Under the pieces are notes generated by a model. The model was not told where the DNA came from. It did not search any database and worked only from the letters and a program-made list of their open reading frames with translations. Of a stretch of DNA of 64,000 nucleotides, positions 1,823-2,323 are shown piece after piece. Source of the stretch: Betaproteobacteria bacterium Ga0077523. Its GTDB lineage: Bacteria > Pseudomonadota > Gammaproteobacteria > Burkholderiales > Ga0077523. The stretch's first letter is position 1. The number at the start of each line of letters is the position of its first letter. A program made the position numbers and the translations under genes. Location of the stretch: the NCBI GenBank assembly GCA_001464695.1, contig LNDQ01000112.1:166835-230834 (forward strand), written 5' to 3'.

Positions 1823-2323
1823 TCACTTCGGCCGCAGCGAGGTCCAGCAGGAGTTGGTGCACTTATTGGAACCCGAATAGGATTCCCAGTGATAAGCGCA
1901 AGGCGTGCCCGAACTGTTGATCTTGACCAGGCAGTGCTTGAAGCTCGGCGTGGACGGCATGTGCTCGATGATGCCGGGGCCGCCCGGTACGTAGGAGCAC
2001 GTCTTCGGCGTGACCGTATCCGGCGAGTATCGATCAAGCTCGTAGTAGCAGCTGCCGTTCATGCTCTTGATGAACTTGCGGCCCCACAGTCGCGTTGACT
2101 TGCCGTTGACGGGCACTGTCAGCTCGCACGGCTGGCACTTCCAGCGCATCCACTCGTCCGGCGTGTCGCACAGGAGCTTGTGGGGTGTGGGTTTCTGCGC
2201 ATCGCGCTCGAGGCAGCGGTTGCTGGCCAGGGCGGTGGCGGAGGACGGACGAACGGTCAGGATGACTGGCGCCGCCAGTCCAGCCTGAATGATCTTGCGC
2301 CGCTTTGCTTGCTGCTTGTCCAT
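1823..2323 (-). CDS. secreted cysteine-rich protein with Tat-like leader, unknown function
   Basis: MDKQQAKRRKIIQAGLAAPVILTVRPSSATALAS leader, then about 130 aa with 10 Cys; first gene of the minus-strand operon with PqqD/HprK-like genes. Confidence 0.7.
   Translation of the reverse strand: MDKQQAKRRKIIQAGLAAPVILTVRPSSATALASNRCLERDAQKPTPHKLLCDTPDEWMRWKCQPCELTVPVNGKSTRLWGRKFIKSMNGSCYYELDRYSPDTVTPKTCSYVPGGPGIIEHMPSTPSFKHCLVKINSSGTPCAYHWESYSGSNKCTNSCWTSLRPK

Follow-up and report, generated by a model that had tools for sequence, protein, structure and literature searches.

The HprK-like kinases PadeK and ThcoK phosphorylate the C-terminal serine of lasso precursors, and PsmN, the pseudomycoidin nucleotidyltransferase homologue, acts after the kinase and is needed for hexoses to be placed on the phosphate (PMC9266682). 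RiPP precursors that carry a signal peptide also exist; for one such group, the bufferins, a partner protein has been proposed to read and mask the signal (PMC12452194). For the HPr-rel-A system defined in NCBIfam, the open-access literature contained no mention of HprK-related kinase, HPr-rel-A, PF14907, or PqqD/HPr kinase together with exosortase, and we found no paper there describing a substrate of the HPr-rel-A kinase or PqqD. Here, we analyze a locus of this last kind, located in a 64,000-nucleotide stretch of DNA (hereafter, the window), and propose a client protein for it.

The window encodes four genes in the order precursor, PqqD_rel_X (TIGR04353), HprK_rel_A kinase (TIGR04352) and NTP_transf_5 (PF14907) (Table 1). 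The second and third were described as PqqD-like and HprK-related in a first-pass annotation made from the sequence alone, and both identities are borne out by scores above the NCBIfam cut-offs. The PqqD protein falls below the cut-off of PF05402, and its fold model, built from two sequences, has a pLDDT of 52, with just three helices predicted with some confidence. A gap of 49 nt separates the precursor from the PqqD-like gene, which in turn overlaps the kinase gene by 14 nt. The nucleotidyltransferase runs past the window start (L053:14233-15357).

Table 1. Coordinates of the precursor, its associated genes and the exosortase-related genes in the window
Feature	Position	Strand	Remarks
Precursor/client P0001, 166 aa	1823..2323 (including stop codon)	minus	ATG start
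Tat-like leader, residues 1-31	2231..2323	minus	R8 R9, P19, T23, then S-A-T-A
Cys37, first Cys of mature part	2213..2215	minus	kept in 9/9 genus members (alignments)
C-terminal SCWTSL motif (Cys159, Ser162)	1835..1852	minus	candidate phospho-acceptor Ser162
PqqD-like peptide chaperone PqqD_rel_X, TIGR04353	1483..1773	minus	50.5 bits, cut-off 35
HprK-related kinase A, TIGR04352	570..1496	minus	361.8 bits, cut-off 200
NTP_transf_5 (PF14907), N-terminal part	1..522	minus	168.8 bits, cut-off 31.2
Amidotransferase	28314-30278
Exosortase A (XrtA)	31449-33032
FemAB-like	38811-39884
PrsT	58944-61757

The precursor frame (minus strand, ATG start, 166 aa) lies at the coordinates first reported for it, and the leader KRRKIIQAGLAAPVILTVRPSSATA, the KCQPC and KCTNSC motifs and all 10 cysteines are present. 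Its G+C content at codon position 3 (GC3, 0.84) and a dN/dS of 0.19 relative to a 94%-identical orthologue in L002 indicate that it is a real coding gene. Of 12 genus genomes searched, nine encode a relative, and these are exactly the nine that contain the kinase. The earlier description of the gene as first in its operon is plausible but unproven, as a membrane-protein gene on the same strand ends 151 nt upstream. This neighbor (2475-4940) encodes an 821-aa protein that has relatives in L054, L055 and L060, matches nothing in Pfam or NCBIfam, and looks like an O-antigen polymerase type.

Searches of the window ORF against Pfam, NCBIfam, PHROGs and PDB returned nothing meaningful, and an angiogenin match was discarded as noise (E 0.64). 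Similarly, 63 precursors searched against all Pfam and NCBIfam models yielded no matches at E 0.001, and precursors in public records carry the label "hypothetical protein." The predicted precursor structure has a pLDDT of 37, rendering the model meaningless. We also considered and rejected the assignment of the window protein as an exosortase (PEP-CTERM) substrate. Such substrates require a PEP motif, a transmembrane stretch and a basic tail, whereas this protein ends in CTNSCWTSLRPK, with no hydrophobic stretch there and no match to any family.

The association of the precursor with the set extends well beyond the window. An ORF with the same type of leader lies beside the kinase in 74 of 77 HPr-rel-A kinase loci, nearly always on the same strand and directly before PqqD; these loci were fetched over genus, order, class and phylum and represent many families, with some of the genomes being incomplete metagenome assemblies and ORF starts picked by rule. 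The initial proposal stood to fall if orthologous clusters lacked such an ORF, and here it held up: the remaining three genomes (G513, G551 and G689) encode one elsewhere. The kinase in these genomes is solitary, with neither PqqD nor precursor adjoining, and a regex-based search near the three lone kinases produced only noise. Their precursors were located by a genome search for PqqD and for the leader, using a profile that held none of their sequences, and lie directly before PqqD in G551 and G689. At L069, the precursor and PqqD are found together some 2 kb from the kinase. Since these two genes stay together when the kinase is elsewhere (G551, G689 and L069), they form the tightest link within the set, which is what recognition of the leader by PqqD would predict. 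At L125 and L126, the precursor is present with only an unrecognizable PqqD-sized ORF.

Other features of these neighborhoods vary. Serine-protease-like genes (HtrA-like in L066, which was scanned) or a Grx4-type glutaredoxin (L064) recur near the cassette in several families (L060, L064, L065, L066, L067 and L123), and their products are possible processing or redox partners. A second PqqD protein in G551 (L133 3582-3857; PF05402, 34.2 bits) lies outside the HPr-rel-A set.

The leader has a consistent form across kinase loci (RRxLxK…AP-x-I-x-T-L-x-S-x-x-A-L-A), which we refined to the profile S/T-R-R-x-[L/F]-L-K ... A-[A/V]-P-x-[I/L/V]-[L/M]-[T/S]-[L/V]-x-S-x-x-[A/V]-[L/W]-[A/G]. The twin arginine is present in 70 of 70 aligned leaders, the proline in 56 and a threonine or serine at the position after I-L/M in 66. 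Only the first half of the profile corresponds to a Tat signal of the general kind. The family profile possesses the hallmarks of a Tat signal (twin-arginine motif, hydrophobic stretch and A-x-A site), of which the window protein's own motif, K-R-R-K-I-I-Q, is a weak version. TatC is encoded in the genome (219.7 bits), and we infer that the precursor is exported by the Tat pathway.

The leader is also specific. Of 60 loci not seen by an HMM built solely from the first ones fetched, the model recovered 41 at E<=0.01; no match outside a cassette was better than 0.27. When the whole genomes of 60 relatives, counting the one that holds the window, were searched, strong matches (E<1e-6) were found in 15 of 17 kinase-positive and none of 43 kinase-negative genomes (Fisher 3e-12); the profile held leaders of many positive genomes, making the positives, though not the absence elsewhere, partly a product of its construction. 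Strong full-length matches occur once per genome and almost only beside PqqD, and the other matches in the 60 genomes are weak (E above 5e-4), mostly partial, and confined to the generic RR part. G031 and G059, the two kinase-positive genomes in which no match was strong, nonetheless have a precursor in place. This combination of a conserved leader and a variable core is the pattern by which RiPP-type precursors are recognized.

Because H122, the P-loop K143, D160 and E161 of the kinase (numbered from three residues upstream of the annotated Met) are invariant in 76 of 76 kinases, this enzyme is probably active; its sole match in the PDB, to HPr kinase 1ko7, is marginal (E 0.52). A nucleotidyltransferase is present in 75 of the 77 kinase loci. 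One open frame of 708 codons contains both the kinase and NTP_transf_5 matches and is apparently a fusion of the two (L119 in G608, 4462-6585). At L091, L093, L095, L102, L104, L105 and L106, the nucleotidyltransferase does not follow the kinase but is divergently oriented on the far side of the precursor.

The first-pass annotation emphasized the ten cysteines of the window protein, the chance probability of which in 166 aa is about 8e-6 at 1% Cys and about 2e-3 at 2% Cys. Cysteine richness does not, however, define the family, whose members contain from 2 to 14. Counts within the nine genus members are 10, 8, 6, 3, 3, 2, 2, 2 and 2, and the nearest sister of the window precursor has lost both Cys109 and Cys131. 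Even counts outnumber odd ones 54:20, which only hints at disulfides. From these comparisons, the ten cysteines are a local, lineage-specific elaboration, and the conserved elements are the leader and, in one type of precursor (type B, below), a C-terminal CxxS. Cys37 and Cys159 are the only cysteines kept by all nine genus members, suggesting that a single disulfide between them likely links the start and end of the mature part in the envelope.

Two main kinds of mature part are found. Type A (GYW type) contains LSGxxSGNxS as its conserved stretch, followed by CxGxTPGYWKNH and is without a C-terminal CxxS; type B ends in CxxS[F/L/I]. The C-terminal consensus in the window genus is TxSC[W/Y][T/S]S[F/L], and among 40 non-GYW precursors, 30 have CxxS near the C terminus and 36 retain the Ser column. 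By analogy with the kinases that phosphorylate the C-terminal serine of lasso precursors, Ser162 is the best candidate for the kinase target in the window protein. Because type A lacks CxxS, no single phospho-site can account for all members of the family. The L093 precursor is merely 74 aa long, perhaps owing to a frameshift.

We consider it probable that the window ORF is a dedicated, Tat-exported and RiPP-like client of the HPr-rel-A set, modified before export. The suggestion that it is a client of the PqqD, HprK-like and nucleotidyltransferase proteins fared well in comparative genomics with respect to gene-set membership, which is strongly supported; the weight it gave to cysteines was misplaced. 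We infer modification of the precursor, down to each chemical step, along the following lines. The PqqD-like protein, presumably of the RRE-type peptide-binding fold, would bind the Tat-like leader, recruit the enzymes and hold back export. The HprK-related kinase would then phosphorylate a serine in the mature region; in type B this would most likely be Ser162 within CxxS[F/L/I], and in type A a serine elsewhere, perhaps within SGNxS. NTP_transf_5 would build on the phosphate by nucleotidyl or glycosyl transfer, and the finished protein would be exported by Tat and its leader cut off at the A-x-A site. For a protein that has to be modified in the cytoplasm ahead of export, a Tat signal would be well suited. 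Co-inheritance of a gene set could also arise without contact between enzyme and substrate, and alternatives of this sort deserve consideration.

NarJ- and TorD-type proteins are chaperones that bind signal peptides and proof-read their cargo. The PqqD-like protein could be such a maturation chaperone for the Tat leader, with the ORF as its unmodified, dedicated cargo and the kinase and nucleotidyltransferase acting on PqqD, on the timing of Tat export or on another molecule. This would fit the precursor-PqqD coupling, the strongest in the set and maintained by adjacency even when the kinase is elsewhere, as well as the better conservation of the leader than of the remaining cargo (mean identity within the genus is 51% for the leader, 37% for the mature part and 54% for the kinase). 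However, the kinase tree speaks against this explanation. The A/B label requires one change on this tree (33 A, 29 B), although the types were set by patterns chosen after the sequences had been viewed and near-copies inflate the clustering. Moreover, for three type-B precursors that are unlinked to their kinases, those kinases fall among the type-B kinases. Precursor and kinase have diversified together, and their agreement with a single change, unlinked genes included, points to contact between the kinase and the mature part. We therefore regard the chaperone explanation as unlikely. The window genus has type B precursors and most other sampled families of its order have type A, from which it seems that the gene set may transfer between lineages as a unit.

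Another alternative draws on the genomic setting. An XrtA/PEP-CTERM exopolysaccharide cluster occupies positions 28314-61757 of the window and, in addition to the genes in Table 1, holds an ATPase, an outer-membrane protein, a tyrosine autokinase and a chain-length determinant. Exosortase is encoded by 17 of 17 kinase-positive relatives and 9 of 43 others (Fisher 8e-9, a value inflated by the kinship of the nine genus members). The ORF could accordingly be a secreted component of the exopolysaccharide or exosortase pathway that is co-inherited but unmodified, with the kinase and nucleotidyltransferase making or regulating a small molecule or polysaccharide. Two observations are at odds with this. 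A specific leader recurring on unrelated mature domains calls for a protein that reads it, and PqqD homologues perform this task. Furthermore, copies of the set on Sphingomonas and Vibrio plasmids are flanked by other genes, not associated with exopolysaccharide. We judge this alternative quite improbable as an account of the protein. Under the modified-client proposal, the precursor may have a role together with exopolysaccharide.

The set also recalls lasso clusters, which can hold a PqqD-like B1 protein, an HprK-like kinase and a nucleotidyltransferase (PMC9266682; co-mention PMC8498205). In several genus members, an asparagine-synthase homologue that might serve as a cyclase for a lasso-like or otherwise macrocyclized RiPP is encoded immediately upstream; the window has one at 8987-10393. 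These synthases, however, fall below the lasso cyclase cut-off (92.8 and 89.6 versus 525 bits), and the models for XrtA amidotransferase or Asn synthase give them much higher scores; none lies upstream in other families, no B2 peptidase was found among the scanned neighbors, and the precursor extends about 100-200 aa beyond the leader. Macrocyclization is thus very hard to credit, and membership among the lasso peptides is ruled out by the distance of the neighboring Asn synthases from the cyclase cut-off. When compared with the XrtA amidotransferase model, the product of 8987-10393 matches the synthase part alone, beginning at model position 176; the ORF as called either lacks the N-terminal glutaminase part or has it in another frame. 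Least credible of all is that the ORF is a commonplace disulfide-rich protein, exported by Tat or Sec, that adjoins the kinase genes by chance: its leader does fit the general S/T-R-R-x-F-L-K Tat pattern, but the arrangement recurs in 74 of 77 loci, the leader is specific genome-wide and the cysteine number is not conserved.

Returning to the modified-client explanation, what is new here is a client for a widespread PqqD-kinase-nucleotidyltransferase set, of which the PqqD and kinase had already been named; this client is specific, occurs once per genome and bears a Tat-like leader. The system would be of a kind in which RRE-guided modification, with a lasso-type HprK-like kinase, acts on Tat-leader proteins. 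We put forward, as a tentative possibility, that it represents a new class of modified secreted proteins in which the Tat signal is also the leader read by the RRE. In this class, the kinase and nucleotidyltransferase would attach a sugar or nucleotide through a phosphate to an entire protein ahead of its export, and might couple that protein to exopolysaccharide. Identification of the client renders the HPr-rel-A system directly testable. If our proposal is correct, RRE-guided modification extends to whole Tat-exported proteins, and an export signal that doubles as a leader has a further example beside the bufferins. It would also provide a function for a kinase set that is common among bacteria with an exosortase, and might connect this set to their extracellular matrix.

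Among known systems, lasso tailoring (PadeK/ThcoK, PsmK/PsmN) shares with this locus an HprK-like kinase, a nucleotidyltransferase, a PqqD-like protein, a leader-bearing precursor and a serine near the precursor C terminus. The window set differs in having no lasso cyclase or B2 peptidase and a whole-protein precursor whose leader is a Tat-like signal. In addition, the lasso kinases are described as having His-Lys-Asp-Asp, whereas the window kinase has D-E, a difference that presumes that the last residues correspond. The bufferins and other MNIO (DUF692) RiPPs resemble the precursor in combining a Cys-bearing mature part with an export signal that might serve for recognition as well, and in being encoded before their modifying genes (PMC12452194). 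They employ a Sec signal and an iron oxidase in place of the Tat-like signal, kinase and nucleotidyltransferase found here; no sequence relation was detected, and a general Pfam/NCBIfam family scan of cassette neighbors found no MNIO (DUF692). The HprK-like kinases of the SynChlorMet cassette (ScmC) and HprK_rel_B are related to the window kinase, which scores 13.4 and 28.3 bits, respectively, but this is far under their cut-offs and their gene sets are different. The closest correspondence is to the HPr-rel-A system itself: the window PqqD and kinase score above the curated cut-offs for membership, and the gene order is that of annotated records. The precursor has no NCBIfam or Pfam model, and it adds a client to this named, apparently uncharacterized system.
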